Shown here one piece after another: positions 35,071 to 62,975 of a stretch of DNA of 64,000 bases. The notes beneath the pieces are model-generated. The model saw only the letters and a list, made by a program, of their open reading frames with translations, was not told the origin of the DNA and made no database searches. Each line of letters opens with the position of its first letter. The stretch's first letter is position 1. Source of the DNA: Liolophura sinensis (lineage: Eukaryota; Mollusca; Polyplacophora; Chitonida; Chitonidae); NCBI RefSeq assembly GCF_032854445.1, contig NC_088307.1, forward strand, positions 17,310,017 through 17,374,016, written 5' to 3'. The position numbers and the translations under genes were made by a program.

Positions 35071-37477
35071 ATGTACTCTTGTATCTTGCTTTTATCCGCC
35101 TTTGTTGGGATTCTGTGGTAGGTTCCGTGCTTAGTTTTCCATACGCTTGCAACCTTTTAAATTATGGTAACAGAGAACATAACACGCTGGTGGAACATCA
35201 CCTTACTGTCCCATTTTTCCAATGACCCATTCCTCACATCACCTCAACTGAAGCATCGACCTCTTGCTCCGTTTGACCATCTTTATATCGCCTCATCGCT
35301 CCCTTACTCCCTTTCCCTGTCTTTTCTACACCTCACCGTCCTATCGTTTCATTGCTTCAATCGCTCCACTGAACCTTGCACCTATTTTGCTATCTCTCCA
35401 TCTCTGTATCGCTCCCTCACTCAATCTTTCCATCGCTCCTTTCATCCCATCGACTTATGGATCCATCTCACCAATGCTTCCCCGCTTCCGAGCTCTATCG
35501 CCCCATTACCTCATCGCTCCAATGTCAAGACACTTCAGTGCCACATCAATCCTCTCCCCCGCGCTGAATCTATCTTCCCATCGCTCTTCCCGTCACCCCA
35601 TCGACATATGGATCCATCAGCCCATTGCTCCCATGTCCCATTGCCCATCTCTCCATCGCCTCATCAATCATCTCCCGCGCTGATCCTATCCCCTCCCCCC
35701 ACATCACTCCGTCGTTTCATGTTTTCATGTTTTCATGTTGAATCATATGACGCGAGCTTATTGGACATAGATTATTGCGAGACCAATTTAAGCTGATCGC
35801 CAACCACCTTTTTATACAACAATGATCCACCAATTTCAGCGCACTGGCGCCAACAGCGCCCTCTGTAGACCTCTTGGTGCAGAGGATGTTTCACCAAGGG
35901 GACACAAACAAGGATGGTATTTACACTAAGGCAGAGGCTTGGGCAAAGTTGCTGACAATGGATATGGATGGTAGGTTGTACATCTCTATAATCAGGGCAA
36001 GTTTACTGTTCAACAAATTATTCTCTGTCATATAATTTTGTTTCTCTTGCATGTCATATTTTATGTATAGGACATAAAGATGAATCGGTTGCAGTGGCGT
36101 AGTGGATAGAACGTCTGTGGGGAGAGGTTCAATCCTGAGTCGTGGCATAGATAAAATTTTAATATCGGTAATTTTCGCACTACCTCTCTTGGCGCTCAAA
36201 GGAGGAGGAATGGACAAAGAACTGGTCAATAGCGTTCGAGTGAAGCAGCACTGTAAAGATGTCCGGCCTGCTACAAGGAGCCATCGTCGTGTTATGAGCG
36301 AAATAATGTTAAAAGCTTGATCAATCAGAAAATAGTTGTCTGTTTCGCAAAAGTCGATCAGTTTCATAATGATTGATGTACTGACTGGTTTGTTTACTCA
36401 TTGTTGCTCAACGTCGTAATCAAGATTTGTATGAGGTGAGGCTGAGGGTAAACCCCTGACCTTTGGTAAATTACTGACGAACATTACCACATGTGACATA
36501 CAGATTTGTACCATTTGTATATTTGTTGAAAATAAAGTCTTCTCAGAACATAAAACGTCTTACACGGCTACGAGTGTACCGCATTTCTACAGGCACATTA
36601 ATACTTACCATGTATACACATGTCTGTGTGGTTAGGCTTTATATCTGTACCAAATTCTATAGGTTTGGTGCGCATCTCGTCTTAGTAAGTATAGGGAAGA
36701 AAGCGTGTGTAGACAACATATGTATTTTGTAACATTATAACATCGTTTACTGTACGATAAAAATGTTTACCATATGGCAGTTACACCACTTAATCTATCC
36801 CCACGATGATATAAAGATGGTTTCATCCTTCACACTTTTGGGAGGTTTTTTGTGTGTGTGTTTTTTTCTTGGTCATTCTGTTTCTCTTGTTCAACGTTTA
36901 TTGCACGACAATGGTGTTTACAAGGTACAATGATATGATCTTTTACACCCTCGTGATATTTATTATCACGATTGTCCCTACCAGGTAACAGTAAGATTAG
37001 CCTTGACGAGTACATTGCCCGCTGGAACGCTGAAGCTCCAAACATGAGAACTGTGGCAGCTGGTATCTTTCGTAATCTCGACTCCGACCGAAGTGGGTTT
37101 ATAGAACAAGACGACGTCAACCGGGCTTATGTTGTAATCGACGTGGACTGTGAGCATGCGCCCTGTTACTCATATATACACCCATAAACCTTTTACTGTC
37201 TTAGAGTTAACATAGTTTTGAGTCCTGCATAAAAAAAGAACCCTATAAATTGAACAAATGAATTGCTAAATACAGTCCTTCCTTATCATCCTAATAACAG
37301 GAAGATAGTACCATTCAAAGATGATTTGCTCATTAACATAAATAATGGAAATTAAACACTAAAAGAACAATATGTGAAACTTGAAGAGGTATAGTCATTT
37401 TCTTTTTATTTCGACATTTCCCTTGTTTAGCAAACGGACAAGTGTCGAGCAGCGAGTTTGTCACATACTTCAAAAGG
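35071..37477 (+). CDS. Large EF-hand gene, signal exon and module 1
   Basis: Exons 35071-35117, 35840-35970, 36985-37149 and 37431-37477 (47, 131, 165, 47 nt). Loops are DTNKDGIYTKAE, DMDGNSKISLDE, DSDRSGFIEQDD and DVDSNGQVSSSE. The 131-nt loop-1 exon equals that of A2. The start at 35071 is chosen because it begins a signal peptide directly before a good donor (GTAGGT) of matching phase. Confidence 0.88.
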
Positions 37478-40400
37478 GTAAGCATATCTTTAATACACAT
37501 GGCACAGAAAAATTTGTATAATTCAGGCAGAAAAATACTGTATTGCCCACCGAGACAAATGTACTGCGTGATAAAGACGTATTCTGGGCAATATTCTTCC
37601 GTGGTTTGTTGACCGATAATCCTGTTTTCCTGTAGTAATGAACACCTTTCTGTTGTTTGCTAGTTAATGTGTGTTTTAACAGCGTTTCAGTGGCGAGAAA
37701 TGTGTTCGTAAATTACCGCCGAGCAGTTAATATGATGGCGCAATGATTTTTCACTTGATAATTGTGTTAACTGCATGAATCACACTACCTTTTAGACCGC
37801 TTCGGTGGTGTAATGGTATATATAGACTTTATAAATGGTACTTGCTGCTTCCTCGCTTGTCGCTCATCAGTGAGAGGTTAGGGCAAGGAAACATGACTGG
37901 TTGGTCCGGTGTCAGTATAACGTGACTGGGTGGGGTGTCACGTCAGATGTCTTCGGCATGATACTTCAGTGGTGGCAGCACATAACACGCTGGTGGAACA
38001 TCATATCTTATGACTCCTCGTCGTCATATGACTGAAACATTGTCAAGTGCGTTAAACCCCAAGCATACCTACATACATACATTACCTTTCATATATTTGC
38101 TCACTTCATCTCCTAAACAAATGGAGGGGATAGTGCAACGACTGGTTGACCCGTATCAGTATAATGGCTCGGGCGGGGCGGCTTACTTGCCTTCGTTTAG
38201 TCATCTCAGTGAAGCAGCACTAGATAAAAGAGCGGTGGAAATCCGTCCTGCAACAAGGAGGTGATTACATACACCCTAAGGATTCCTTCGTCGTCATATG
38301 ACTGAAAAATTGTTGAGCACGACGTTAAACCCCGATCACTCACTCACTCACTCTCCTAACAAGGCTGAGAAGAGCTGTTAACTGTCATGTCAAGTGCACC
38401 TACACTAAAAATATAAAAGAAAGAAATTGTAAGCAAGTTTAAAGAAATCCAATTTTTTTTTTCGACTGATCAGGTAACCAATGATTCTACATAATCCTTG
38501 TTCTATTACAGATCTTATCATCTGCTACATCGCCAGAGTCATTCGTCGATACCAGGTAATGTCATAGCTTGCATTTGTTTTCTGATCTCTAATAACATAA
38601 GAGGGGCCTCCGTGGCTCAGTCGGTTAGCGCGCTAGCGCAGCGTAATGACCCAGGATTCGTTCACCAATGCGGTCGCTGTGAGTTCAGCTGTCAGTTCAG
38701 CTCATGGTGGCTTCCTCTCCGGCCGTACGTGGGAAGGTCTCCCAGCAACCTGCGAACGGTCGTGGGTTTCCCCCGGTTTTCCTCACACCATAATGCTAGC
38801 CGCCGTGGTATAAGTGAAATATTCTTGAGTACGGCGTTAAACACCAATCAAATAAATAAATAAAATAACATAAAAGATTGGTAGTATTTACTCTTACCTC
38901 CCCCCCCCCCCCCCCAAAAAAAAAAAAACCCGACTTAAGTCGCTTATACATATATGTGCGGGGCTTTTAGGGAAAATCCCACATAAGAATGCAGGCCATC
39001 AGTGTCTGAAAGCAAGTAACTCTGCACTGTACGGAGATATTTTCACTGTCTTGAAATGGATTCACCTCCACTGGGAGTTGCATAGCCGAGTTGTAAAGCA
39101 GAGATCTGAGTTTTCAACATGTAAAGCAACGCTTAAAAATCGGTAATCTTCGTACTTCCTTCTCTAACAACTAGATGAGGTGTTCAAAACGGTGTCAGTA
39201 TTCTGTGACAGGGTGTGGCGTCATGTCTGGTGTCTTCCGCATTGGGTTCCAGTGAGCCAGCACTGTGCATATGCCTGCAGTCTTGACACTTATTGATTCA
39301 AAGCCTAATGTGTCGAAGGACTGAAGTATATGTTCTACAATACTGGGACAAGGGTAATTTTACATTTTAGTTTCCCTCAAATTGATGTCAACAACGACGG
39401 AGTAATCAGCTTTGACGAGGAATGGGCCAGTGTAAAGCGCTATGACATTAATGGTAAGCAATAAGGGAGGTTTGAGATCGAAGTCCCACTGTAGCGAGTG
39501 ACTTGTCAAATCATATTGATATCAATTTATCGATCACCTGTCTCGCCGTGTTTCATAGGCACAAATGATACCTCTTTCTTTACAAACTTCAAAACTCACA
39601 TACGTTCAGCCCCTTAGTTCCCTCCGCCATTCGTCTATTTTAAATACCTTTACTTGTCACTTTCTCTCAGACGCCCATGTCATAGTAAATGCATTCAGAT
39701 TTAGTTGCCTAACATTTCTGATTGGTCACATGGTATAGTATGACTTTTTAACCTTGACGATAAATGAGTTCATACTCGAAATTGGGCAAAATAAACAGCT
39801 TGCACGTTGGAGTAATGAAAAGTTATGCACAGGGTGCCTAACTTCACCAGCTTGTAACATCTAAATATAAAGAAAAGAATCACTGCAAATCTGTATGTAT
39901 GTGTGTACAATTTCAGCAACAATATTGGTATTGTACACTGTTCATGTGAAAGTTATTCGCCAATGAAAGTTTAATCCACACATACATATTTCACAAAAAT
40001 GTTATTCTTTGTATTTCTGTTTTTCTTATGAAAAATAATATGGCTCTAAGGGGTTTCAGTATTCTCATTTAAATTAAATAATTAATAGACTATGACGTGG
40101 TCATGGAAATATGCCCGTCATGATAAATAGTTTAAGCCGTGTATAAATTTTGTGAGATCAACGGAAAACCGGGTCGGGTCCGCCTCGAAGTCGGGAGAAC
40201 TCAGGATCAAACCCCGGGTCGGGTCATACCAAATGGTACATTGCTGCTGCCTCGCTTTGCATTCAGCATTAAAAGCTTAGAGCAAGGAAACATGAACGGT
40301 TCGCCCGGTGTCAGTATAATGTGACTCAGTGGAATGTCATGTTTTGTGTGTTCGGAATGATACTTCAGTGGCGGTAGCACTTTGGCGGCATGGACTCAAG

Positions 40401-43400
40401 AAGACACAGTGTATGTACACATATCTTATGACATCTCGTCATCATTTGACTGAAAAATTGTTAAGGATGACGTTAAACCCAAAAGCATAAATGCATGCAT
40501 GATGGAAAACGCATGCAAATATTGTTAAGCAGATGCTCTCGCTCTAAAACTGCAGGGAAAACATGCATCAGGCAAGCTTTTTAAAAAGTATTCTTTTGCA
40601 TGCCCTTTGTAAGCCTTTATTTTGTTGAAGCCCATTACATCATAAAACAGATCAACAGTGTGTTAGAAAAAAATTTATATCAATCATAATTATTTTTATT
40701 GCCGCCGTTGTTAAAGTGAAATATGCTTGAATCAATGCGGTGAAACAGACATTTGTTGGCAACATATGTACACGCCATATGCCGGACCCTTCGGTATATT
40801 GCTGTCAACCAATCAAATAAATAAATAAATTATTGTTTTTAACATTATTTGTTTCGCTTTGTAAAATGTATTCCTAACAGCATATTCTGATTTCGGCATG
40901 TCATAAATATTAAACTTTCTGTTCTAGGTGACGATAAAGTCAGTAAGGTAGAATTCATGTTGGTCATCAGCAACACGTCGTACGGCTCATTTGGACTTGA
41001 CGAGACGTGGCCAGATATGTTTGATGCCGTCGACTTTGATGCCAACCGATTCCTGGAAAAACCAGAGGTTCAGAAATTTTACCAGCTGATGGATTCCGAT
41101 CGTAAGCTGTTTACGTGTGATTATGATGCCGTGTATGTGATTTATCATATACATGTAGGTAGCTATCCAGTACATGTCTGTTGTTATCTCGGCAGTCATG
41201 TACATGCATGTTGTTATCTCGGTAGTCATGCACATGTCTGTTGTTATCTCGGCAGTCATGTACATGCATGTTGTTATCTCGGCAGTCATGTACATGTCTG
41301 TTGTTATCTGGGCAGTCTGTTGTTATCTCGGCAATCATGTACATGCATGTTGTTATCTCGGCAGTCATGTATATGCATGTTGTTATCTCGGTGGTCATGT
41401 AAATGTCTGTTGTTATCTCGGCAGTCATGTATATGAATGTTGTTAGCTCGGCAGTCATGTATAAGCATGTTGTTATCTCGCGTCATGTACATGTATGTTG
41501 TTATCTCTTTAGTCATGTACATGTCTGTTGTTATCTCGGCAGTCATGTACATGCATGTTGTTATCTCGGCAGTCATGTATATGCATGTTGTTATCTCGGT
41601 AGTCATGTATATGTCTGTTGTTATCTCGGCAGTCATGTATATGCATGTTGTTATCTCGGCAGTCATGTATAAGCATGTTGTTATCTCGGCAGTCATGTAC
41701 ATGTATGTTGTTATCTCGGCAGCCATGTACATGTATGTTGTTATCTCGGCAGCCAAGTACATGTATGTTGTTATCTCGACTGTCATATACGTGTATGTTG
41801 TTATCTGTTATTGTGTGCATGTATGTTGTTATCTCGGCAGTCATGTACATGCATGTTATCTCGGCAGTCAGTACATGCATGTTGTTATCTCGGCAGTCAT
41901 GTACATGCATGTTGTTTATCTCGGCCGTCATATACATATATGTTGTTATCTCCGCAGCCATGTACATGTATGTTGTTATCTCGGCAGCCAAGTACATGTA
42001 TGTTGTTATCTCGACTGTCATATACGTGTATGTTGTTATCACGGCCGTCATTGCACATGCATGTGCTTATTTCGGCCGTCATATACATGTATGTGGTTAT
42101 CTCGGTTATCATGTTAATTTATAGCTCTCTTGAGCATATTGCCGGCAATATTATTGCTGCATCCTTTATCAATTGAAGCGCTTTGGTACACAGAGCCTCT
42201 GACGTCATTATTATTAACTCCGGCCATTACTGGCATCTTAATTCATTCTTCTTTCTTTTTCAGATAATAATGCTGTCACGAAGGCAGAAGTTTTAGCGGT
42301 AAGTTCTCCCAATGAGGATGAGTTTGAAACATTTAACACAGATACCCACATAGGTGTAAACTTAATTTGTGTATTCTGCTAGGTATGGAAGTTGGTTAAG
42401 GATACTATCGTAACACCGTAGTGTCGCCCATCGATGGCACGAAGCGATGGCACGATGACACGGTGATAGGAGGCGATCGCACGAAGCGCCGTACGACGGA
42501 ACAAACCGATGACAAGCTGGAACGATACGACCAGACGATGGCACGAAGCGATAGACCTCGTGCCATTGTTCCACAGTATTGATGGACGATAGTGCGTTGA
42601 AATGACGTTTGCGATAGTGCGTTGGTATGATGATGGTCTTAATCGGCTCCTTAGCGAGTCGAGGATCCAAACATAGACGTTTCATTATAAACATTAACTG
42701 TGTTCAGATAAATGTCTTGAACACATAAACTGGTAAGAGAGAGAAGTCGAAACATTCCTCTGAAAATGATAATCCGTCAGCTTTGCTTTTGTTGTCATAA
42801 TGAGTCTTTTTATCTCTCGCGCCGGCCGTTGCTGTCCATCCGACCAAAGCGTCAGAAGGTTTGCCAGGTACTTGCCGAGTGGAGGTTGTTTATTTCGCGC
42901 TCATCGCTTTCTTTAAGCCATGTAATCTGGATTGCCGTGGTGTAAGTGAACAGCTTTTCCATATTTCGGAGAACATCAATCAGGTGATTCACCTAAATAT
43001 TTCGACTGTAAGCAAAGGAAATATAAGATGCTATATGCCATCACTCTCTTCTACAAATAGTGATTGGTAATGTGTTTTAATTGCAGGCTTACATTAAAAC
43101 GAAATTCTGATAAGATATGCATACATTTTACTGATATACATGCTTGTCTATTTTCCCATCCTTTACAGGCTTTCAAAAACTTTAACCAGTTGTCAGGCAG
43201 GTAAGAATTGCGAGGGAAAACAGTGTACGGAAACAGGTTGCAGGGATCATATATGTACTGTCTTGAATTTTAATTAAAAGTATAGTTATAATGAATGTTA
43301 AAGATACATGGATCTTATCCGATGTTTTCCTCTCATTTATACGGAATGTTACAGATCTTATATAGGATGTTTTTTTTATTAATAATACCGAATATTAAGG

Positions 43401-46400
43401 GAACAAGTCGTGAAGGCGACCATGTAGACAGGAGTGATATTGGGAGTACCTGATATACCTTAATGGAAATTTATTTATTTATTTATTTTTATATATTTAT
43501 TTATTTGATTGGTGTTTTACGCCGTACTCAAGAATATTTCACTTATACCACGGCGGCCAGCGCTATGGTGGGTGGAAACCGGGCAGAGCCCGGGGGAAAC
43601 CCACGACCATCCGCAGGTTGTTGCCAGACCTTCCCACGTACGCCTTAATGGAAATGAATGCGATACTAAACGTTGCAGGTGTCATATCAGATGGTTCCCA
43701 AGTTATACGAATCTTGCATTTGTTACGTTACTTGTTTTCCTTTCAATAATATTTTCCTTAGGTATAGGGAATCTTTCAGCTACAAGGTGTTTCCTATCGG
43801 TGACCTAATATTACATCATCGATATACCTCATATATATACATATATAGATACATTTCCTTTTAGTAATAATGAATGCTATAGCTGACGTATCAGATGATT
43901 TCCTCTCTGTACAACAGAATGGTATTACCTTCATATACCAGATGTAACCTTTCAGTAATACTGAATTTTATAGTGACTTATCAGATGTCATTTCCCCTGG
44001 ATTACATGTAATATAACAGCTATACACCAGTTCTTATTTCGCCTGGATTACATGTAATGTAACAGCTATATACCAGATGTTATTTCCCCTGGATAACGTG
44101 TAATGTAACAGCTATATACCAGATGTTATTTACCCTGGATTACATGTAATATAACTGCCATATACCAGATGTTATTTCCCCTGGATTACATGTAATATAA
44201 CAGCTACATGTATATACCAGATGTTATTTACCCTGGATTACATGTAATATAACTGCCATATACCAGATGTTATTTCCCCTGGATTACATGTAATATAACA
44301 GCTACATGTATATACCAGATGTTATTTACCCTGGATAACGTGTAATGTAACAGCTATATACCAGATGTTATTTACCCTGGATTACATGTAATATAACTGC
44401 CATATACCAGATGTTATTTCCCCTGGATTACATTTAATATAACAGCTACATGTATATACCAGATGTTATTTACCCTGGATAACGTGTAATGTAACAGCTA
44501 TATACCAGATGTTATTTACCCTGGATTACATGTAATATAACTGCCATATACCAGATGTTATTTCCCCTGGATTACATGTAATATAACAGCTACATGTATA
44601 TACCAGATGTTATTTACCCTGGATAACGTGTAATGTAACAGCTATATACCAGATGTTTCCTTTTCAATTACACATCTGCAATACAAATTAGATGATTTCT
44701 TTTCTCAGCAGTAATGTGACCTCATCGGACCAGGTTGACTACGGGTTTGCTGAAGCCGACACAAATCATGACGGTGTTCTGACATTGTCGGAAGAATGGG
44801 CACATATATTGTTAGAGGACAAGAATAGTAAGGACAGCAAATATTTATACGTAACATGCTTTAAATATATATAATCTAAAAACACGAAACAAAAGGGCGG
44901 GATAAAATCAGGTATTAAAATGCTGAGAGCCAAAATGTAAAGCTGATATCTTTCAAACATACGCGATGTTTGAAGACAAAAGTAATAAGGGCAAATATCA
45001 TGTTTGAGGTCAAAAGAAATAAACGGAGAACGTGTTGTTTGAAACTAAAAGCTGTAAAAGACAAATGTGATGTTTGATAGTACATGCAATGAACGCAAAA
45101 TTGATGTAAAAGACTAAGGTCTAATGCAAATGAAGGTAATTCACAATGAAAGCAGTAAATGCAAATATTTGTGGATAAGGACAGTAAAAGTCAAATGAGA
45201 TGATTAGAGCAGTAAGAACAAATATAGGGGTCGAAACAGATATTCGTATGCCAGTCGTCAACCAATAAGGACGTCCCGGGTCAATAAGGCCAGCTCCCAT
45301 AACGACGTTTAACACAAATTACTAAAGAACTAAGAAAGTATACACAGTACGAAAATAGGCCGGAATCATGCAAAGAGAAACTTTCAACAGTTATCAATGA
45401 TGAAGGAAAGACTCAAGATATGTTCTTGGCGACTGAATGAAATCAGTACTCAAACCGTGTATCATGCTAGAATATCAGTTGTCGATAACAAAATATGTAT
45501 GTCAGTTGCGCTTTGATTGCAACTGTCCATATATCCAACTGTCCATATATCTAACATGGCAATCTAATTCAACACGATGAATATACATCCCCTAGCAAAC
45601 CTCGGGTTAAGTGGAATTAGACACAATCATGAAGCAGAGCGTTTCAGAGAACAAAAGCAAATCCAAAATGTAGGCATCTTCATACAAAAAATGCAAGTTG
45701 TCGACAAGAAAAAGGATGATTTTGATTAAGTTACAATTAACAAGCAATAAACACAAAAATATGCAGATAAATAATAAATAAAGGGAATAAATAATAAAGG
45801 GATATTTTTGTATAGATGTGTTTCATACCTGCCGGTAGTGTTAAACAACTTCAGGTCAACGTCTTCCAGCTGAGTGAAATTTGGAAAATGTATAGAGTTA
45901 ATCGAAAGCGATTGTTCAACAGCATTCTACTGTGTTGCGCCATGTATCAGTCTAGAAATTGCACGCCATTAAAATCACTGCGCTCTTTTACCTAATATAG
46001 CTAAGAGCATGTTGATAGGAAGCTTCTTTTTATGTATTTGCAAGAACAGTTAAAGTAAAACCCTGACTGAGGTAAAATGACATAAGGCCATATTTCACAG
46101 CTTACGTGTGGCCATTTGCCACGTGTCACACTGTCATCGCTGTTCTGGTTTTACTCTCTATGCTGTACGTCAAGAGCAGAGCTATCAAATAATTACTGTT
46201 GGCCACCGTTGCACGAGAGACGTTGTAACTTTACTTTATACCAACGTTTCTACGAAATAAAACATTTCTACTTTTCTCTTTCCAGATGACAACATGGTCG
46301 ACAAAACTGAGTTTCTCAAAATGTTCAAAATTTTCCCAGATGACGTCATTAGTGCAGCAAGACGAATATTTGATAAATACGACAATAATTCCGATGGTCT

Positions 46401-46953
46401 CTTCCAAAAGGAGGATGTCGCGACATACTTCACCGCTATGGACGCGAACGGTGAGCACGGAATTCTTGTGTCGGCAAAACAAAATCTGTACAGCAGATGG
46501 ACGTACTATTAGTGTTTAGTTGACACGCGGTGCTGAAGATGGTCAGATTGTGAAATGGCACTGCCTTTTCAAATCTTTGCAGACACATGCTGGTAATCTG
46601 ACAAAATCAGAGTGCGAAAATACAGAGTGTGCAGAAATGGTACAGATGATGATCATGCTGTTAATTTGCTGTGGTTTGGAGCTTAAATCCGGTGACTAGA
46701 TGTAGAAAGCCGTGGAGTAGGAAGTTCACTTGACTGACATCTTACGCCGTGCACCACGAATGTTTCACTTCTTTGACGGCTGTCAGCTATATAGGCGAGA
46801 GGAACAGGGCAGAGCCGGAGAGTACCTCTGCACCAAATTAGGAACAAAGTAAAACTTCAACCGCTAGCTGGATTCGAACAAATGATCTCTAGGCCACGAA
46901 TACTTGAAAACACATTAGACAGGTCATCCAGCGAGAACACAAATAAAAATTCA

Positions 46954-53000: not shown

Positions 53001-56000
53001 AGGTCAATCCTGAGTCGATTCACACCTAAGACCTTAAAAGAGGAAGTTATAGTTTCTTCATTAAGGGGATAGTACAATGACTGGTTGACCCGTATCAGTA
53101 TAATGGTTGGGTGGGCGGCTTACTTGCCTTCGTCTCAGTGAAGCAGCCACAGGGAAGTCCTCTCAGTGAAACAGCACAAAATAAAAGAGCGGTGGAAATT
53201 CGTCCAGCAACAAGGAGGCACATTGCATGTACATGCACTCTAAGGACTCCTTCGTCGTCATACGACTGAAAAATTGTTAAGTACAACGTTAATCCCCAAG
53301 CACTCATTCACCTACTTTACACCTCATCTATACCTCGCACAGAGGTGTACACCTCAAGTCTGTAAGGGTGCGAATGTCACTGGCTTCTCGCATTTTTTAC
53401 ACCTATTACCGGGTGCACTTATTCACATCAAAAGTAGTGTCTGCGGGTGATTTTGATAATGTCCCAGATTCCATTGTTCAAAATAAATGTGTAGTTGAAT
53501 GGCAGTTGGAGAAACTTGTTCACACTGGTCAACAAAGTTTTTCAAACCTTGAAAACATGAGAAAATAAACAGATCAGATATGTACCACATATAAAATATG
53601 TAACAATACCCTGATGTCATAAACCATGTTTTAAGTATATATGTACTTACTTCAAAAAATATTTTGACAGAAATGTCCATCGTACCAAAAAACGATAAAA
53701 GCGCCACCGGTAACTTTAAGTTATGGTTGACTTTCGCTTACATCAGGCCTTATTTCTGGAAAACTATTTTTGTCATTCGCATTGAAAGTTGTTGAGGTTA
53801 GTGCAATTATTAGGTAAACTTTTCATGTAATTTTGAAGTTTTACCTTTAATATCAAATACACACACAGCACTCAAACTTTTCATTAACTTCAAAGTCCAA
53901 ATTGTTTTTTCTAAAATTTTCGATACTTGTTCAGTTGGCACTATATACCACGTCTAATGGCAGCAAAATAGTAATAACACGTTTTTAGTGATCCATCTCA
54001 GGTGCACTGCCCATGTGGATGCTGGCTCCTTCAAATTCATACCAGAATAATAAATGTTATTTATTCAAAATAATAAAAAAAAAACTCGTTAACTGCAAGC
54101 TATATCTAAAACAACATTTACGCAATTTCTTTAGATTTTACTTTTGAATGAATACAATGTGGTCTGATGACGTCACCACTATTCTTTCCGGCCAGAAAAA
54201 ATCTGAAATATTTCAACCATTTGCACAAGGAGACATAGCACTTGCTTCCTGGGAAGAATTTTTTCACAGATGAACGTAAAGAAGTAATCTCTACTACGTA
54301 ATATGGGTCATAATGGTCTTAGAATTAAAATGCCGAAAAATAAAGATACATTCAGTGATACAGTTCTCTGTCAACTTTCCACCAACATCATTTATTTTTA
54401 CGTATCCTTCCTGTTTAAATCGATCTGGAATATCTTTGACATGGCTTACTTACAAGAAAACAAACGCTAATATGAGGAAAGCGTCAACAGAAGGACCATT
54501 CTACACTGTAAATAAAAATAGGTCTAATTATTTGAACGCCGTTCTGAAGAAGTTTTCGAGGCCTCCGTGGCCGAGGGTGTTAGCGCTCCAGCTCGACGCA
54601 ATGACCCAGCAGTTGCGGTTGCTATGAGTTCAAGTCTAGTTCATGCTACCTTCCTCTCCGGCCGTACGTTGGAAGGTCTGCCAGCAATCTGCGGAGGGTC
54701 CTGGGTTTCCCCAGGGCTGTGCCCACCGTAATGCTGACTGCCGTCGTATAAGTGAAATATTCTTGAGTAAAGCACCAATGAACTAAATAAATTAATCGAT
54801 CAAGAAGTTTTCACTTCTAAGATAACGGTTATTTTTATGGGCGGGGAAAACCACTGACTTTGGCAAGTTACTGAAGAGCTTAACTTCGTCTTGGACTGCG
54901 CAAACGAATACAAGAGCCTGGTCGATAGCTTATTGTCACCAAGACCCCAGAAACAGTGAGAGCAGAGGAGGGAGGTGTTATCTTTTACTCCAAAACAAAT
55001 GCAGTCAGATGTGTGGATTGTGTCATGTGCTCTGTGGACCATATTATTAATGTATGTTACTAGTTATGTCACACCGACTTTTCCATGGCCCTATAACAAA
55101 TATTTCATGTTGGATTCGTTTGTCCTACATAGGCAAGTCTTGCATACGTAAGGTACACAAGAATTGTATTTAGGTCTGAATATAAAGATGTATGATGCCT
55201 GAAGCTCACCTTATAAACCACAAAACTTCATTTAATTCAGAAACAATCTGATCTTTTGATCTTTCAGATGATGTTTTCTGCGTTTTAATGTTTTCTGTCT
55301 CTTTAAGAGCACCACTGCTTTTTAATGTGTAATATTGATTTTGAATAGTAAGATATTCTTCCTACACAGCTATTCGCCAGTTTTGGAACCCGTGTGGATA
55401 ATCTTGCCACCAAGTAAGTATTCGGGCTATTCCTGCCATTTCCATGCAGCAAGGTGATATTGAACGTGTACTGAAGTTCTTTATTTCATGATTGTGAAAT
55501 TATATTATGATCCAATTCTAATTTCTTCAAGAATTGCACCAGCGTAGTAACCGTTTAGTAACCGTGAAATACTTGAATTTTGGGCAATTGAAGTAATATA
55601 AAACCCAGTACATAGAACATGTTTATTCAACAATGAGTACAAAGCATAACATTTGTTTCACTGTACCGTCTTTCTGGATATTTGTCAGAATGTTCCATGA
55701 AGTACCCGTTCCCACTTTTTAATTTTCTGCCGAACTCTTACGAACTGACTTCGTAATGTAATCGTGTTAACATTTGTGATCTTTCGTACTGATTCGTGAG
55801 CGGTCGTAATGAATGCGTGCTCTATTTTTGATGTCGGCGACAATTTCAAAAAATTAACGAATTTCGTACCTGGACATAAGTTCTTAATGATCTGTAAGTG
55901 TTCGCAAAAACTTCGTGAATATTCACAAATCGTAAAGTGAAATCGTAAAAGTAACGTAATCATTCCGGAAGCAACGCAATGTAGAAACGGTTTTCAAAAT

Positions 56001-59000
56001 CAGCCGATCAAGGCAGGGTAGATGCGAAACAAATAGGAATTTACAATAGTGTCGTGATGCATTCGTAAGTCTGTCATAAACGGAGTGCGGAGATCGTTAT
56101 CATTCTTTTGAAGTTCTTCAAAAATTCAAACAGCGTCGTAAACATGATGTCACTGAGTGGGGCCTAAAGCTGATTAAGGTTAACGTTGTAATGCAGCACA
56201 ATGGCTCAGGAGCCTCTCGCCAATGTGGCCGTCGTGAGCTCAATTTCATGTAGACGTGTGTGTAATGGACATATTGGAAATTAGAATGTTGAGAAGCAAC
56301 ACGCCAACCTTACGACGTCTTAGCTGAATGTAAACATTATGGACAGCTTCATGATAACAATGGCCATGACTTAACAGCATCCTATATTTGTTCCAGTGAC
56401 CTCATTTATAATGGTTTTCTGTTCGCGGACGCCAACCATGACAGGAAGTTGACTGCGCAGGAACAGTGGGAATCCGCTTTGACAATCGACTTAAATGGCG
56501 AGTATACTTATTAGGCACACATTATATCAGAGACAAGATTCCCACCATAATGCTGGCTGCCGTCGAATAAGTGAAATATTCTTGAGTACGGTCAAATAAC
56601 ACCAATCAAACAAATAAATAAATAGTAGAGAAGAACAAATAAGTATGGAAGCTAAATAAAACCAGTCCCGACCCGGATTGGCCTTTTGAACACAACTAAT
56701 AAACACTGATACACTTTGAAAACGCAAAAAAGGACGAGAGGTGTGTATTATTAACTGAAAACCAATTAACAGGCATCAAAGCACAGAAGAATATTATCCA
56801 GACCATATACCACTCAGAACTGTCATCTTTGTCCCGATATTTTATTTTGCCCGAATTATATTTTTAAAAAGTCATTCACTTCAATGTTTTTATATCTCGT
56901 CATCAGAACGCTTATCAGAAAGCTTGCCTGCCTGCCTCCAAAAATCCGCGAGAAACGTCAAAGAACTCTACCTTGTCACACTGTTAAGTATAAAACATAA
57001 ATGCCATTAAATACATGAAATACGTGATACTGCTTTGCAGGAGATAAAAAGATCAGCAAAGACGAGTACGTGAAGGCATTTGCCAATTCCCGGGATGACT
57101 TCCGGGCAGCCGCTCCAAAAATATTCGATAGATTTGACCCAGACAAAAATGGGTTTATCGAGAAATCCGATGTCGTCTTGATAGTGGCTGTCCTTGACCC
57201 TAACGGTAGGTGCCCCAAAACATGTATTGGTAAGTGGTGGAAGGAGATTGATTGATCTACATTGATCTTCATGTAAAACCGCCTCAAATTGTCCTACAAG
57301 CGTTCGAGGATTCCTCGTATCGGAAGACACTTGATCACGAAACGTTTTCTATTCGCATGCGAGAGTACATACTAATACAGTCAAGTATGTCACTCTTTAG
57401 AACGTAAGCAAAATCTGAGCATGCCGGAAAGACCAAGAACTGGCTAAGGCAATATCCACGCAACCAAACCCGCGCAATCAATTGTCGAGAAGCACCACGT
57501 GGCTTTCTTTATGTTCCAAACGCGAAATCATGAATTCGTGACACGTAAAATCATAGACACCATTTCTTTTCAGGGGACGGATATATTTCCCCCGAAGAAT
57601 ACATGGCATTTTTCAGCAAGGTGAGTGTATTTCTATGAATATCATATAAACAGATCTTGTCCGAACATCGTCTTCAGATGTCTGTGAGTTCAAGCCCAGC
57701 TCATGCTGGCTTCCTCTCCGGCCGTAAATGGGTAGGCCTGGGAGCGACCTGCAGATGGTTGTGTGTTTCCCCGGGGCTCTGCCCGGTTTCTTCCCACCAT
57801 AATGCTGGCCGCTGTCGTATAAGTAAAATAAGTGAAACATTCTTGAGTACGGCGTAAAACACCAATCAAAAAAAATCCTTAGATGTCATGCCCAGAATGA
57901 CAGCTATCTTTTGATTATCAAGAATTATAAATCATTGTTGATTTAATTCATTCGCCAAGGACATTCCTTGGACGTTTCTGTCATCATTGGAAACTGTTGA
58001 CTTCTTCTCTTTGCATAAATCCGGTCTTGCAGCAACCTGCAGGTGGTCTTGGGTTTTCCCCGGTTTCTTCCCACCATAACCGTAGCTGTCGTATAATTGA
58101 AATATTCTTGAGTACGGCATAAAACTTCATTCAAATAAATAAATAAATACATCAACTATAAAAACAGTTTCATGGGGACAAATACCTGAAACTCGCCTAT
58201 ATATATAGTATTACTGATACAAGCTTGACATCATCTATCAATATATATATATATAGTTACACTGACACAACAACCTGAATAACTTCCTGTCCAGCTGAGT
58301 ATATGTCTAGAAATGTGTGAAACTCTTTTATCCCGTTGGAAGTTGCCATCGTGGCCGAGTTGGTTAGTACGCCAGCACGGCGCAATGAGCCAGGAGTCCC
58401 TCACCAACACAATCGCTGGGCGTTCAGCTCATTTTGTGTTCCCCTCTGGCAACCTGCGGAGGGTCATGGGTTTCCCCGGGATCTGCCCGGTTTCCTCCCA
58501 CCATACTGCTGGCCGCTGTCGTACAAGTGAAATATTCTTTAATACGAATCACCAATCAAATAAATAAATAAATGTATCCCGTTAGTACCAAGTGTCGAAC
58601 TATATTTGATCATATCTAACATTTGCCGTGCTTTCGTCACCAGCTTTACGCCAGCGAAGGAGTCCACGAAGGATCCCATCAGAGGTATGTATTATCCAAA
58701 ACGTTCACTTCACGACCAGAGGGCCTCCATGGCCGAGTGGTTAGCGTGCTAGTGCAGCACAATGACCGAGGAAACTCATCCAAAACGAGTTGATGTCCAG
58801 CTCATGCTGGCTTCCTGCGGATGGTAGGGGGTTTACCCCAAGCCAGGTTTCCTCTCGCCATAAGGTTGGCCGCCGTCGTATAAGTGAAATATTTTTGGTG
58901 TATAAAACACCAATCAAACAAACAAACATGAGTTGTGTTTTGGTGCATGGTCGAGTAGACAAATGCCATATGTCCCCTAACTAATAGCCAGTGAGTTCGC

Positions 59001-62000
59001 CGGTTCGAGTCCAGCTCTTCGTTAGCGGAGGGCGATGATTTTCCTCAGCCACTGACCGAATTCTTCTACCTATGAACTTGGCAAGCGTCGTGCAAGTGAA
59101 TCATGTTTGAGGGACTGCATTAATGAATAATTCAAATGAATAAATAAGTACTCTCTAAAAACGATTATGTACAAATTTGCACATCCACAGTGACATGTGT
59201 ATCAGCGGTACACGCACATATAAACATGTCACTGTGGATGTGGCACATGAATTACACAATTTGTTTATTACTGATACACAAAATTATGTAGATGTACATT
59301 TATGCCACAACGCTGTACACAGTAGTTTTCAGAGAGTATCCCTTTTGTGTTTTCGCCACATCCATATCGTTATGAAAATACCAATACTATCTCGGTCATG
59401 AGAGTGACCATTCATGGAATTGCCCGTTCAGGCAGTCAGTGTTGCTCAAATGTGGCATGGCATGTTTGTGTCTAAACTGAACGGGGTATCCGCGTGTCAT
59501 TCGTCAGATGACGTATGGCATGATAAGGCAATGATGGGAATAACATATTCCAAACTCGCAGACTTAGAAAAACAATATTTATACCTTCAGTCGTGGGCTT
59601 CCATGAGTAAGAGGGAAAACTGAATACATTTCATGTCCTTTTGCATTAACATAATATTAATCTTTCCTGGCTCATATATGTGGAAAAGAAAATCTGTTGC
59701 CTTTTATTTGATTTTTGTTGTATTATCTAATTTCGTAAGATGCTATGTATGTTTACAGCCCTCCTGATTATGGTTTTGACAGCATAGACACGAATAAAGA
59801 CGGTCTAGTCACCGTGGACGAAGAATGGGCAGGTGCTTTGTCCATTGATTCTAACGGTAAGTACATCGTGATTCACATAGAACGAAACAACTCCGAAGTT
59901 TGAGGGAGTTCTACAAAATGATCCCGAAATTTGAGGGAATTGTACCGATTGACCCGAAATTTAAGGGAATTGTGCCGAATGACTACGATACTTAGCGCAA
60001 TTAACACAGTGGTCTCAAATTGTATAATCAACTTTCACAGGTGTCAAGCGGGTGCGAGTATTTGACTATTCCCTGTGAATTGTAGCGATACATACGAGTG
60101 GTCGAGTAACCCAAGGGAATTACACCGGAAGATACGAGTGGTCGACTATCTCATGTGAATTGTACCGGTACATAAGAGTAGTCGAGTAATCCATGTGAAC
60201 TGCGCCGGTACATACGAGTAGTCGAGTAACCCATGGGAATTGTACCGGTACATACGAGTAGTCGAGTAACACATAGGAATTTTATCGGTACATACGAGTA
60301 GTCGAGTAACCCTTTGGAAGTATATCGGTACATACGAGTTGTTGTCTAGCCCATGTGAATTGCTACCGCTATATACAAGTTGTCGGGTAACCCAGGTGAA
60401 CTGTAGCGGTACATACGAGTAGTCGATTACCCTATGTGAATTGCACCGGTACATACGAGTAGTCGAGTAACTCATTTGAATTGTACCGGTACAATAGTCA
60501 ACTATCCCTGTGAATAGTACCGGTACACACGAGTAGTCAACTATCCCCTGTGAATTGTACCGGTACCTACGAGAGGTCGACTATCCCCTGTGAATTGTAC
60601 CGGTAACTACGAGTGGTCGACTATCCCCTATGAATTGTACTGGTACCTACGAGTGGTCAACTATCCCCTGTGAATTGTACCGGTACCTACGAGTGGTCGA
60701 CTATCCCCTATGAATTGTACTGGTACATACGAGTGGTCGACTATCCCCTGTGAATTGTACCGGTACATACGAGTAGTCGAGTAACCCATGTGAATTGTAC
60801 CGGTACATAAGAGTAGTCGAGTAACCCTTGGGAAGTGTATCGGTACATACGAGTTGTTGGCTAGCCCATGTGAATTGCTACCGGTACATACGAGTTGTCG
60901 GGTAACCCAGGTGAACTGTAGCGGTACATACGAGTAGTCAACTATCCGATATGAACTGTACCGGTACATACGAGTAGTCGAGTAACCCATGCGAATTGTA
61001 CCGGTACCTACGAGTGGTCGACTATCCCCTATGAATTGTACCGGTACCTACGAGTGGTCGACTATCCCCTGTGAATTGTACCGATACATACAAGTGGTCG
61101 ACTATCCCCTGTGAATTGTACCGGTACATACGAGTAGTCGAGCAACCCTTGGGAAATGTATCGGTACATACGAGTTGTTGTCTAGCCCATGTGAATTGCT
61201 ACCGGTACATACGAGTTGTCGGGTAACCCAGGTGAACTGTAGCGGTACATACGAGTAGTCAACTATTCGATATGAACTGTACCGGTACATACGAGTAGTC
61301 GAGTAACCCATGCGAATTGTACCGGTACCTACGAGTGGTCGACTATCCCCTATGAATTGTACCGGTACCTACGAGTGGTCGACTATCCCCTATGAATTGT
61401 ACCGGTACCTACGAGTGGTCGACTATCCCCTGTGAATTGTACCGGTACATACAAGTGGTCGACTATCCCCTGTGAATTGTACCGGTACATACGAGTAGTC
61501 GAGCAACCCTTGGGAAATGTATCGGTACATACGAGTTGTTGTCTAGCCCATGTGAATTGCTACCGGTACATACGAGTTGTCGGGTAACCCAGGTGAACTG
61601 TACCGGTACATACGAGTAGTGGACTAACCCATGAGAATTGTACCGGTACATACGTCGGGTAACCCAGTTGAACTATACGGGTACACACGAGTAGTCGACT
61701 ATTCCATGTGAATTGTACCGGTACACACGAGTAGTCGAGTAATTCATGTGAATCGCACTGTTTCATTAACAGGTGACAGCAGGATTAGCGAGTACGAGTA
61801 TATAGTGTCATTCGCCGACTCTCCAGTGAGCTACAGAGAAGCGGCGCCTATGCTGTTTCGAAAGTTTGATGCGGACCACAACGGGTTCCTGGAGCGATCC
61901 GATATCGTCACGGGGTTTAAACTCATTGACACCATTGGTAATTGTTGTTTTCAATACTTTTGAAACAATGAACAATTTGTTTTATCATATTTTTTTTGTT

Positions 62001-62975
62001 ATAAAAAATATTAAAAAAAAAACTTTTGTGATACTGAGACGCGAAACGTTTGAAACAAAAAGACCACATAGTGATTACCCACCTTAATTTAAATCTTGAT
62101 AAAAAAATTCTTCACAATACTTGGTGCTTAATTTACGAATGCTATTGTGATATAAGACCACAGTATCTACACAGTAAAATCAGAGCAGCGACGTAAGTGT
62201 GATAGTTGGCAAATAATCACAGGTAACCAGTGAAACCCGGCCTCTTGTCAGTTCACATTGTTGAGGATTTTATTCAAACTGTTTGTATACATGCTTAAAA
62301 GAAGCATCATCCCCTCCCCCCAACACTGTGGCTTATCATAATTGAGTAAAAATATGGATTTGTGTTAATGGCAATTTGTTAGACGTCATTGTTAAAGGAG
62401 GACTCTAAAAGCTGATACTCGTCTTACTTTAGTCTTAATATAAACTTGCCCACAATATTTGGTGCATCTTCTAGGAATACTGTCATTTCATCTTAATATT
62501 TGTCATACCTTAAAGGCGATGTGTAGTTTTATTACAATCAAACCGTCTGATAGTCATGCAAGGACCATTCGCTGTGTGAAATCCACTGCGTACAGTCACT
62601 TCCTACTGCTAGGTGAAGGTGACGTCTAAACAAGAGTCATATGAGCATGCAGAAGCACTTAGCAAACAAGCGCCTTTACTCTATAAAATATTGTCCATGT
62701 ATTGTCCATGTGCTGGCCAATCTATCTAACGGGCTCTGTCGCTAGACAGCTCTTCCTTGACCAATACAGCTTACATCAGAACGTTGGACATGTACCTTAC
62801 AAGGGCTGGTCGGCATTTCCGGACTCCACACATGACTGAATGCCTTCGGATGAACGACCTGTTTCTAAGCATAGCCTATAGCATCAACCAATCAATCAAA
62901 TGCATAGCTCAATATTTCCTATGTCTAGGTGACGGCGCTGTAACGAAATTCCAGTATTCAACTTTCGTCAAAAAG
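35071..62975 (+). CDS. Large secreted protein with at least 24 EF-hands (24 exons, 3' end beyond window)
   Basis: A signal peptide (MYSCILLLSAFVGILCA) is followed by six tandem modules, each with four EF-hand loops. Twenty-four exons total 2,166 nt, or 722 residues, with no internal stop; exon 24 ends in phase 0 and no stop appears before the window ends. Exons follow one pattern six times: linker (32-50 nt), loop-1 exon (83-131 nt), a 165-nt exon, then a 47-nt exon. In the first module the signal exon takes the linker's place. Boundary phases (2, 1, 1, 0) are constant, so each four-exon block can be copied without breaking frame. All introns are GT-AG except one GC donor (56498). Linkers lack the His-rich segment of the smaller genes. 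A secreted multi-EF-hand calcium binder is well supported. I recognise no named orthologue, and the role is unknown. Confidence 0.88.
35260..35710 (+). repeat. Pyrimidine-rich low-complexity tract in intron 1 of the large gene
   Basis: Repeats of CATCGCTCC/TCCATCGC type. They create open frames of up to 210 codons (35164-35796) rich in Ser, Pro, Leu and His, with no recognisable domain. Exon 2 of the gene follows at 35840. Confidence 0.6.
36085..36320 (+). mobile_element. SINE family C, degraded
   Basis: Head GCAGTGGCGTAGTGGATAG and B-box-like GGTTCAATCCTGAG are visible; the 3' part is much altered. It lies in intron 2 of the large gene. Confidence 0.5.
37795..38085 (+). mobile_element. SINE family C
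   Basis: Head GCTTCGGTGGTGTAATGG, body CGGTGTCAGTATAACGTGAC, and an end ACGTTAAACCCC-like followed by a CATAC repeat tail. Confidence 0.65.
38120..38355 (+). mobile_element. SINE family B, 5'-truncated
   Basis: Near-identical flanks CTCCTAAACAA and CTCCTAACAA mark the target duplication. Ends in CACTCACTCACT. Confidence 0.75.
38512..42298 (+). CDS. Large EF-hand gene, module 2 (divergent)
   Basis: Exons 38512-38555, 39371-39453, 40928-41101 and 42264-42298 (44, 83, 174, 35 nt). Loops are DVNNDGVISFDE, DINGDDKVSKVE, DFDANRFLEKPE (Arg at the Gly position) and DSDHNNAVTKAE. The third exon is 9 nt longer and the fourth 12 nt shorter than usual, yet all phases are kept. The short 42264 exon ends KAEVLA and is the least certain piece. 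Confidence 0.82.
38601..38863 (+). mobile_element. SINE family A, complete reference copy
   Basis: Flanked by the duplicated site AATAACATAA (38591-38600 and 38864-38873). The tRNA-derived head has A-box-like TGGCTCAGTCGGTTAGCGCG and B-box-like GAGTTCAGC. A long conserved body follows, then AGTACGGCGTTAAACACC and an AATAAATAAATAAA tail. It is Pol III-type and non-autonomous. It begins about 45 bp after exon 5 of the large gene. Confidence 0.88.
39070..39310 (+). mobile_element. SINE family C, diverged
   Basis: Contains GACAGGGTGTGGCGTCATGT and CTTCCGCATTGGGTTCCAGTG, close to the next exon at 39371. Confidence 0.5.
39495..39800 (+). repeat. Dispersed repeat family D2, copy 2
   Basis: Partner of 23755-24125. 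It lies in the intron after exon 6 of the large gene. Confidence 0.5.
40170..40500 (+). mobile_element. SINE family C
   Basis: Contains GGATCAAACCCCGGGTCG, CCCGGTGTCAGTATAATGTG and GACGTTAAACCC. Confidence 0.6.
40700..40832 (+). mobile_element. SINE family A, 3' fragment
   Basis: GTGAAATATGCTTGAATCAA to CAATCAAATAAATAAATAAA, ending about 95 bp before exon 7. Confidence 0.5.
41165..42122 (+). repeat. 30-bp minisatellite in the intron after exon 7
   Basis: About 32 units containing GGCAGTCATGTACATG and TTGTTATCTC. The array starts about 60 bp after the exon 7 donor. Since 30 is a multiple of three, long open frames (up to 226 codons) exist on both strands; these are not genes. Confidence 0.9.
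42420..42570 (+). repeat. Low-complexity GATGGCACGAAGCG tract
   Basis: Irregular repeats of GATGGCACGAAGCGATGG type, noncoding, in an intron. Confidence 0.5.
43169..47314 (+). CDS. Large EF-hand gene, module 3
   Basis: Exons 43169-43200, 44712-44827, 46286-46450 and 47268-47314 (32, 116, 165, 47 nt). Loops are DTNHDGVLTLSE, DKNNDNMVDKTE, DNNSDGLFQKED and DANGDGKVSRNV. The last has Val where position 12 should be acidic, so it may bind calcium poorly. The second exon has a tandem acceptor (CAGCAG), so it could start at 44709 with one extra Ser. Confidence 0.86.
43463..43646 (-). mobile_element. SINE family A, head missing
   Basis: Tail TTTATTTATTTGATTGGTG to CTTCCCACGTACG; lies about 260 bp after exon 9. 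Confidence 0.7.
43990..44665 (+). repeat. 47-54-bp minisatellite before exon 10
   Basis: About 13 units with CTGGATTACATGTAATATAA and TATACCAGATGTTATTT. It ends about 45 bp before the acceptor. Confidence 0.85.
44828..46040. other. Intron between exons 10 and 11 of the large gene
   Basis: AT-rich. It includes irregular AGCAGTAA..GCAAAT..TGATGTTTGA-like repetition near 44940-45200, and D1 repeat copy 3 (listed separately). No exon seen. Confidence 0.5.
45215..45625 (+). repeat. Dispersed repeat family D1, copy 3 (longest)
   Basis: From ACAGATATTCGTATGCCAG to CTCGGGTTAAGTGG; used here as the family reference. Confidence 0.6.
46046..46166 (+). mobile_element. Short MITE, best-preserved copy
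   Basis: 121 bp. The left end ACAGTTAAAGTAAAACC and right end GGTTTTACTCTCTATGCTGT are imperfect inverted repeats, and no coding capacity is present. It lies about 120 bp before exon 11. Confidence 0.7.
46735..46880 (-). mobile_element. SINE family A, highly diverged
   Basis: TTACGCCGTGCACCACGAAT and GGAACAGGGCAGAGCC remain. Confidence 0.4.
46955..47028. repeat. TA microsatellite
   Basis: About 74 bp of TA repeat in the intron before exon 12. Confidence 0.95.
47433..47801 (+). mobile_element. SINE family B, complete reference copy
   Basis: A perfect 12-bp target duplication, CATTCTTAGGAA, flanks it (47421-47432 and 47802-47813). The tRNA-derived head has A-box-like TAGCACAGTTGGTAGAACG and B-box-like GGATCAATCC. 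The tail is CACTCACTCACT. It is a young, intact copy between exons 12 and 13. Confidence 0.9.
47965..52039 (+). CDS. Large EF-hand gene, module 4
   Basis: Exons 47965-48014, 48621-48730, 50089-50253 and 51993-52039 (50, 110, 165, 47 nt). Loops are DTNNDSRLSIDE, DKNGDQLLSKDE, DFNKNGFWDKSD and DSSGDGYLSHDE. A SINE ends about 15 bp before the acceptor of the 48621 exon. Confidence 0.87.
48448..48606 (+). mobile_element. SINE family A, 3' part abutting exon 14
   Basis: Ends CAATCAAATAAATAAATAAA. Only about 15 bp, including ATTCGTTTCAG, remain between it and the exon. Confidence 0.7.
49093..49232 (+). mobile_element. SINE family B, 3' fragment
   Basis: AAATAAAAGAGCGGTGGAAA to CACTCACTCACGAC. The frame it shares with other copies is not a gene. 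Confidence 0.7.
49785..50010 (-). mobile_element. SINE family A, diverged
   Basis: TTTCACTTATACGACGG, CGCAGAGCCCGGGGGAAACC and GACGGGAGAGGAAGCC are recognisable. It ends about 80 bp before exon 15. Confidence 0.6.
50254..51610. other. Intron between exons 15 and 16, left part
   Basis: Mostly unique sequence with a small SINE A remnant at 50965-51020 (GCTTTACGCCGTACTC). No exon seen. Confidence 0.5.
51611..51736 (-). mobile_element. Short MITE, minus orientation
   Basis: 126 bp, ACAGCACAGAGAGAAAG to TTTTATTCTGGCTGT. Confidence 0.65.
52650..52985 (+). repeat. Degenerate TGAGGTGTAT repeat
   Basis: Many irregular copies of (T)GAGGTGTAT/TCTGAGGTA lie in the intron after exon 16. An inverted remnant (TACACCTCA) follows the SINE at 53325-53360. 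Confidence 0.55.
52986..53322 (+). mobile_element. SINE family B, rearranged
   Basis: Head remnant GATCCAAGGTCAATCC, body with a short internal duplication around CAGTGAAGCAGC / CAGTGAAACAGC, and a CACTCATTCAC end. Confidence 0.65.
53371..54557. other. Intron between exons 16 and 17, middle part
   Basis: AT-rich unique sequence, no exon or repeat recognised. Confidence 0.45.
54558..54800 (+). mobile_element. SINE family A, nearly complete
   Basis: GAGGCCTCCGTGGCCGAGG head, GAGTTCAAGTCTAG B-box-like segment, and a shortened end before AAATAAATTAAT. Confidence 0.7.
55370..57620 (+). CDS. Large EF-hand gene, module 5
   Basis: Exons 55370-55413, 56397-56497, 57041-57205 and 57574-57620 (44, 101, 165, 47 nt). 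Loops are DANHDRKLTAQE, DLNGDKKISKDE, DPDKNGFIEKSD and DPNGDGYISPEE. The 56397 exon must end before GCGAGT, a GC donor, to keep the phase seen in every other module. Confidence 0.87.
55680..56110. other. CGTAA/TTCGTAA-rich intron tract
   Basis: An unusual density of CGTAA, CGAA and TTACG motifs on both strands in the intron between exons 17 and 18. It could be an old repeat; no family recognised and no gene. Confidence 0.35.
56537..56625 (+). mobile_element. SINE family A, 3' fragment
   Basis: CCCACCATAATGCTGGCTGC to CAAACAAATAAATAAATA, about 40 bp after the GC donor of exon 18. Confidence 0.6.
57675..57875 (+). mobile_element. SINE family A, head truncated
   Basis: TGTGAGTTCAAGCCCAGCTC to ACACCAATCAAA, with a short internal repeat around AAGTAAAATAAGTGAAA. 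Confidence 0.65.
58018..58150 (+). mobile_element. SINE family A, 3' fragment
   Basis: CTTGCAGCAACCTGCAGGTG to an AATAAATAAATA tail. Confidence 0.6.
58346..58575 (+). mobile_element. SINE family A, nearly complete
   Basis: GTGGCCGAGTTGGTTAGTAC head and CACCAATCAAATAAATAAAT tail; ends about 70 bp before exon 21. Confidence 0.65.
58644..62975 (+). CDS. Large EF-hand gene, module 6
   Basis: Exons 58644-58684, 59759-59856, 61773-61937 and 62929-62975 (41, 98, 165, 47 nt). Loops are DTNKDGLVTVDE, DSNGDSRISEYE, DADHNGFLERSD and DTIGDGAVTKFQ; the last has Ile at position 3 and Gln at 12 and is probably weak. The final exon ends KK before GTAGGT in phase 0, so at least a linker or tail exon follows outside the window. 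Confidence 0.87.
58718..58930 (+). mobile_element. SINE family A, nearly complete
   Basis: Starts GAGGGCCTCCATGGCCGAGT about 35 bp after exon 21 and ends CACCAATCAAACAAACAAAC. Confidence 0.65.
58985..59150 (+). mobile_element. SINE family A-like, very diverged
   Basis: GGTTCGAGTCCAGCTC, GTGCAAGTGAATCATG and an AAATGAATAAATAAG tail remain. Confidence 0.4.
59182..59240. repeat. 17-bp inverted repeat (hairpin)
   Basis: CATCCACAGTGACATGT and its exact inverse, separated by 25 bp, in the intron between exons 21 and 22. Confidence 0.8.
60040..61765 (+). repeat. 40-bp minisatellite before exon 23
   Basis: About 42 units with TACCGGTACATACGAGT and AGTCGAGTAACCCATG (or GGTCGACTATCCCCTG), then GTGAATTG. 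Longer blocks of several units recur near 60740, 61110 and 61470, a higher-order pattern. The array reaches within about 10-20 bp of the exon 23 acceptor. Proto-units with GAAATTTGAGGGAATTG precede it from 59890. Confidence 0.9.
62160..62282 (-). mobile_element. Short MITE, minus orientation
   Basis: ACAGTATCTACACAGTAAAA to GGATTTTATTCAAACTGT. Confidence 0.55.

Follow-up and report, generated by a model that had tools for sequence, protein, structure and literature searches.

Several described protein families place EF-hands in the secretory pathway or outside the cell. Calumenin and reticulocalbin belong to the CREC family of acidic secretory-pathway proteins, which carry about six EF-hands and an ER-type C-terminus, and the SPARC family combines an extracellular calcium-binding domain with disulfides and a follistatin-like domain. 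To our knowledge, very few secreted proteins contain more than a handful of EF-hands. Among described proteins, abalone Hdh-SMP5 is a secreted, Asp-rich shell matrix protein of 134 amino acids with a signal peptide and three predicted EF-hands (PMC10741955), coral CARP1 contains multiple EF-hands (PMC12960093) and EFCAB6 contains multiple EF-hand motifs (PMC8595878).

We analysed 64,000 nucleotides of the genome of the chiton Liolophura sinensis (hereafter the window). With moderate confidence, we read one locus in it as a single chiton gene encoding a secreted chain of calmodulin-like four-EF-hand modules, with six modules in the window and a seventh beyond it, giving about 28 loops in about 890 residues. 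Judged by title, the papers found on chitons and EF-hands do not concern this array, and a term search inside PMC7850002, PMC6351634 and PMC12005716 found no mention of EF-hands. For the genome published as L. japonica (PMC11068029), a correction on species identity has appeared (PMC12441733); the former paper names RNA-seq of digestive gland, foot, gill, gonad and heart.

Exon structure and EF-hand loops of the long gene

We rebuilt from the DNA a chain of 24 coding exons on the plus strand (35071-62975), composed of a signal exon, five a-b-c-d cassettes and a sixth a-b-c cassette, which join into one frame of 2169 nt and 723 amino acids with 0 stops:

35071..35117, + strand: s1, start codon and signal peptide MYSCILLLSAFVGILC, ends in phase 2; identical in the LOC135480932 protein
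35840..35970, + strand: a1, loop 1 and start of loop 2 (rebuilt from DNA)
36985..37149, + strand: b1, 165 nt, remainder of loop 2, loop 3 and start of loop 4
37431..37477, + strand: c1, 47 nt, remainder of loop 4
38512..38555, + strand: d1, linker into module 2
39371..39453, + strand: a2
40928..41101, + strand: b2, 174 nt
42264..42298, + strand: c2, 35 nt
43169..43200, + strand: d2
44709..44827, + strand: a3
46286..46450, + strand: b3, 165 nt
47268..47314, + strand: c3, 47 nt, its loop having Val at position 12, as in the paralogue
47965..48014, + strand: d3
48621..48730, + strand: a4
50089..50253, + strand: b4, 165 nt
51993..52039, + strand: c4, 47 nt
55370..55413, + strand: d4, where LOC135480932 ends as if the GTAAGT donor were read through to TAA
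56397..56497, + strand: a5, GC donor, absent from both NCBI models
57041..57205, + strand: b5, 165 nt, absent from both NCBI models
57574..57620, + strand: c5, 47 nt, where LOC135480767 begins at an internal Met
58644..58684, + strand: d5
59759..59856, + strand: a6
61773..61937, + strand: b6, 165 nt
62929..62975, + strand: c6, 47 nt, gene goes on past the window

The 47-nt signal exon runs from the ATG at 35071 and is joined in phase 2 to the first of the six cassettes. Much of what a first-pass annotation had proposed for this chain was borne out: the exon order and the repeating phases 2, 1, 1, 0 recur in the rebuilt exons (a 2 to 1, b 1 to 1, c 1 to 0 and, in modules 1-5, d 0 to 2), the chain is unbroken by stops, and a hydropathy peak of 2.55 supports the signal peptide at its start. 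The proposed product of 722 residues was one residue short. Near-constant lengths of 165 nt for exon b and 47 nt for exon c hold in five of six modules each but not in module 2, and the four-exon cassette is complete in modules 1-5 but not in module 6, whose end exon d6 was not found in the last 1 kb of the window. Among 19 acceptors listed for 62976-64000, we found no convincing candidate for a stop-bearing end exon of module 6.

Acceptors are AG in all 23 cases and donors are GT in 23 of 24, with GC at exon a5. As a frame control, we counted open exons and found all 24 open in the coding frame versus 9 and 5 in the two other frames; for the exons of at least 80 nt (n = 12), the counts were 12 versus 1 and 0. 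Exons occupy about 8% of the 27,905-nt span. The placement of all 24 exons in one transcript behind one signal peptide would follow from their phases and splice sites and from the paralogue described below.

The introns of the long gene hold minisatellites of differing sequence at 41170-42105 (30-bp), 43982-44657 (46/52-bp) and 60055-61753 (40-bp). Dispersed repeats lie at 38605-38864, 54560-54802, 58344-58577 and 58721-58934 and end in AATAAATAAA or similar; their start looks tRNA-like and they are perhaps a SINE family, and ARAGORN found no tRNA.

Pfam EF-hand_1 and EF-hand_7 match the long protein with an E-value of about 1e-55. Consistent with the 24 loops claimed in the first pass, 22 of 24 keep D at position 1, a usable ligand at positions 3 and 5 and D or E at position 12 (26 of 28 with the seventh module); a stricter PROSITE-like pattern is passed by 12 of the 24 window loops. 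The profile matches, the 22 intact loops and the helix-loop-helix pattern in a structure model of the paralogue together place the protein in the EF-hand superfamily. Both failing loops, DANGDGKVSRNV and DTIGDGAVTKFQ, are without an acid at position 12. Because DANGDGKVSRNV (module 3, Val12) is letter-identical in the paralogue LOC135480603, this exception is probably ancient and retained. Asp12 is found in loop 3 of six of the seven modules of the long gene and of all six modules of the paralogue. Asp at position 12 goes with a weaker or Mg2+-tolerant site, which suggests one such site per module. Loops 2 and 4 of modules 1-6 each have an intron at codon 4, in phase 1, and these matching positions suggest that the four-loop module came from a doubled pair.

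The long protein is acidic (pI 4.4), its modules are spaced by 113 to 126 residues, and Pfam at E 0.01 found no domain type in it beyond EF-hand-like and loop-like models. Averaged over 17 residues, its hydropathy rises above 1.25 only close to the two ends and reaches at most 1.22 between them. The first-pass annotation had regarded its loop count as a minimum, the gene being open at the window edge, and rightly so: the predicted NCBI protein LOC135480767 extends beyond the window with a seventh module, followed by a tail (...MAGPSLCSSILTVLVSLVVSVLYISA). The array is probably somewhat larger than the first-pass annotation stated. The tail, whose exon lies outside the window in a predicted model, has a hydropathy of 2.54 and looks like a GPI signal by eye, and the long protein is possibly tethered through it.

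A paralogous array and single-module relatives

LOC135480603 (P0002) is an uncharacterised L. sinensis protein of 749 amino acids with a signal-like start and six four-EF-hand modules. Its modules 1-5 are 56, 55, 55, 52 and 50% identical to modules 1-5 of the long gene and its module 6 is 52% identical to module 7; modules within the long gene are 26-47% identical to one another. Five of the six paralogue modules pick the same-numbered module as best partner and the sixth picks module 7, and among 5040 pairings the collinear one narrowly ranks first (mean 53.4% versus 52.4% for the runner-up). By this collinearity, the two proteins belong to one family of long EF-hand arrays. In a module tree, modules 1, 2, 3, 4 and 7 pair with their partners with supports of 83/85 to 100/100; 4 of 13 inner branches lie above both support limits, and the tree does not settle modules 5 and 6 or the attachment of the single-module genes. 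The collinear matches argue that the array predates the duplication that gave both long genes and that its order was kept in both.

Besides these modules (50-56% identity), the two proteins share a signal-like N-terminus and the Val12 exception in module 3, whereas LOC135480603 has one module fewer and, as a predicted model, ends without a hydrophobic tail. Its structure model (pLDDT 61, pTM 0.26; good for secondary structure only) predicts helical EF-hand modules and loose linkers, with some low-confidence stretches also inside modules. Among the 50 fold matches listed for this model, query TM-scores were 0.06-0.13 and say little beyond 'EF-hand'.

The window also contains single-module relatives, which the first-pass annotation did not mention:

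7002..10182, + strand: complete single-module gene; exons 7002-7048, 7863-7993, 8349-8513 (165 nt), 9533-9579 (47 nt) and 10084-10182 (stop)
362..1602, + strand: last two exons of a second single-module gene, c 362-408 and d 1504-1602, identical to the LOC135480703 C-terminus
23253..26195, - strand: single-module relative, open in frame; a 26071-26195, b 24826-24990 (165 nt), c 24299-24345 (47 nt), d 23253-23342
27881..30042, - strand: single-module relative across an assembly gap, boundaries tentative; a 29918-30042, visible part of c 28651-28685, d 27881-27970
16361..21883, - strand: decayed single-module copy; a 21762-21883, b of 168 nt with a shifted stretch, c of 46 nt (not 47), d 16361-16441

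The complete gene has exons of 47, 131, 165, 47 and 99 nt in the phases of the long gene and stops after a His-rich tail. LOC135481094 (P0011), wholly inside the window, corresponds to this gene minus the signal exon 7002-7048, its model starting at an internal Met of exon a; LOC135480703 lies partly inside. Where seen in the window, both share with the long gene exon b of 165 nt, exon c of 47 nt and common phases, but they have one module, 23-30% identical to those of the long proteins, followed by a His-rich C-terminal tail and a stop. By eye, exons c and d and their flanks are near-identical between 360-1620 and 9530-10200, which indicates a recent duplication. A similar 38-bp tandem repeat forms large arrays at 11163-14415, 2163-3143 and 10522-10851, downstream of the two plus-strand single-module genes.

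On the minus strand, no signal exon was identified for the relative at 23253-26195, and a run of 200 N at 28686-28885 hides exon b of its neighbour at 27881-30042. A signal-like frame, MATVLCILGAFLAVGVT, lies upstream of the minus-strand relatives (34331-34383, - strand, GTGAGT donor) and may supply the 27.9-30.0 kb relative with its signal exon. An open frame at 30677-31123 (+ strand) has no Pfam match at E 0.01; we take it to resemble a remnant of a Tc/mariner-type transposase.

How did the array arise? The a-b-c-d cassette is phase-symmetric, beginning and ending in phase 2, and corresponds to the body of the single-module genes found in this window. Because these relatives share its exon lengths and phases, the cassette represents the body of such a small gene. 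Repeated duplication of this gene body is the most likely way in which the array grew, the end exon of each duplicated copy being converted into a short internal linker. With the unit gene and the amplified array in one window, the path from a small to a long EF-hand gene can be read from intron phases, the readable signs being (i) the same intron sites in loops 2 and 4, (ii) the phase-symmetric cassette and (iii) the end exon made into a linker.

Role of the protein and extent of the gene

What could such a protein do? Its most likely role, judged from sequence, is that of an extracellular, possibly tethered, high-capacity Ca2+-binding chain. The long protein would leave the cell and, in calcium-rich extracellular fluid, about 26 ligand-intact loops would hold Ca2+. 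The chain would then form, at the cell surface or close to it, an acidic, Ca-stabilised string of beads that would buffer or concentrate Ca2+, plausibly at the sites where plates, sclerites or other hard parts form. Only the analogy with the secreted EF-hand shell matrix protein of abalone and with coral CARP1 suggests a link to hard-part formation. Extracellular Ca2+ may keep EF-hand sites of this kind permanently filled, which speaks against a regulated release of Ca2+. A bolder version appears doubtful as a whole: a chiton-unique, GPI-anchored extracellular array of 28 EF-hands that arose from the single-module gene next to it through amplification of the exon cassette and that supplies Ca2+ to chiton hard parts.

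We infer a chain that buffers or concentrates Ca2+ as the first choice, its main rival being a Ca-stabilised spacer. In that alternative, a single protein would have a mechanical role, as an extracellular spacer or adhesion rod and not as a Ca2+ buffer. Sites kept filled by extracellular Ca2+, the GPI-like tail and modules parted by low-confidence linkers in the paralogue structure model would all suit a rod. However, Pfam at E 0.01 reveals no other domain type, cysteines are few (2 in the 723-residue window product, 3 in about 890) and the spacing of the modules is uneven. A mechanical role is a serious but less likely alternative.

Does the locus contain one gene or two? NCBI has two uncharacterised loci here, LOC135480932 (modules 1-4) and LOC135480767, which raises the alternative of a secreted protein with 16 EF-hands and a downstream gene, perhaps with its own signal exon. 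The protein of LOC135480932 (P0001) is identical to our rebuilt model over 501 of 502 residues, and its last residue, Lys, is the one expected from reading through the d4 donor into TAA; this model thus ends inside a consensus splice donor. The protein of LOC135480767 (P0009) lacks a signal peptide and begins partway through an EF-hand exon, at an internal Met of c5; its first 123 residues, which are all of it that the window covers, match the rebuilt model. Exons a5 and b5, intact and in frame, are in neither NCBI model, no AATAAA or ATTAAA lies between d4 and a5 (55415-56397), and LOC135480603 is unbroken across the point of the split. All of this argues against two genes. The split falls at a GTAAGT donor adjoining the GC-donor exon a5, and gene finders often miss GC donors. 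Thus, one gene was probably cut in two by annotation, the GC donor of a5 being the likely reason, and the two public gene models probably need merging.

Evidence for a second gene comes from one further feature:

54999..55051, + strand: possible alternative signal exon, a hydrophobic 53-nt frame that ends in phase 2 at a GTATGT donor, in frame with a5; in neither NCBI model

The first-pass annotation had named transcripts that break between modules with separate promoters, or stop codons in the exon chain, as observations that would count against it. A first, looser scan of 35-64 kb gave many hydrophobic frames, most of which the 30-bp minisatellite (41.2-42.1 kb) contributed. In a stricter signal-exon scan with a donor consensus, s1 and 54999-55051 remained outside the minisatellite on the plus strand of this region. 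The latter frame could provide a second gene with its signal exon, or mark a second promoter or a second transcript start. It may also be signal-like by chance: shuffled sequence yielded a mean of 1.3 such candidates per 64-kb strand (0 to 5 in 20 shuffles). Because the candidate joins a5, we hold the single-gene reading less confidently and have raised the likelihood of two genes, which we nevertheless consider unlikely.

There are two further alternatives. A signal peptide, many EF-hands and an acidic character would also fit a CREC-like luminal Ca2+ store of the secretory pathway, but none of the LOC135480932, LOC135480603 and LOC135480767 proteins has an HDEL/KDEL-type C-terminus and LOC135480767 ends in a hydrophobic tail instead, which makes a luminal store improbable. 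That the protein is a precursor cleaved into separate four-EF-hand units is very improbable. Modules 1 and 6 do end in KR or KK, but of the 8 dibasic sites in 890 residues no others lie at module ends, most linkers having none.

Comparison with known systems

A search with the 723-residue product (7990 candidates scored) gave at least 8 matches, two of them uncharacterised L. sinensis loci. The other six, from jgi, lgn and ena sources, are 23-30% identical, and two of these are named, as 'Ca2+-binding EF-hand superfamily protein' only. No family beyond the EF-hand superfamily was named among the 8, in keeping with the first-pass claim that the protein has no named family. In these protein searches, keyed on shared 5-residue words, the organism-named matches were L. 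sinensis loci only, which hints weakly that the array is absent from other molluscs. A PDB sequence search with the long protein returned 44 EF-hand-type matches. For protein P0010, the PDB sequence search at 1e-3 gave no match and the structure model (pLDDT 40) was unusable.

How does the long protein compare with the families described above? By description, it shares with CREC proteins an acidic EF-hand sequence behind a signal, whereas an ER-type C-terminus is found only in CREC; no CREC protein is named among the 44 PDB matches, and an ER-retention-type C-terminus is absent from all three predicted proteins of the long genes. The long protein does not fit the SPARC family: over its whole length PF10591 scores 32.8 bits against a cut-off of 22, with no single stretch passing, and there is no follistatin-type model among the 10 Pfam families listed for it, with 2 cysteines in 723 residues. 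EFCAB6 resembles it in having multiple EF-hand motifs, but EFCAB6 and other ciliary microtubule proteins are intracellular. The top two fold matches of the LOC135480603 model are Tetrahymena doublet microtubule chains, with low query TM-scores of 0.13 and 0.08.

By description, coral CARP1 is a multi-EF-hand protein as well (PMC12960093), and abalone Hdh-SMP5 is likewise molluscan, with a signal peptide and EF-hands, but has three predicted EF-hands in 134 amino acids (PMC10741955). If expressed in mineralising tissue, the long protein would be a candidate among chiton calcium-handling proteins. Set beside these systems, it arranges an ordinary domain in an unusual architecture, and the origin of that architecture can be read from the neighbouring genes.
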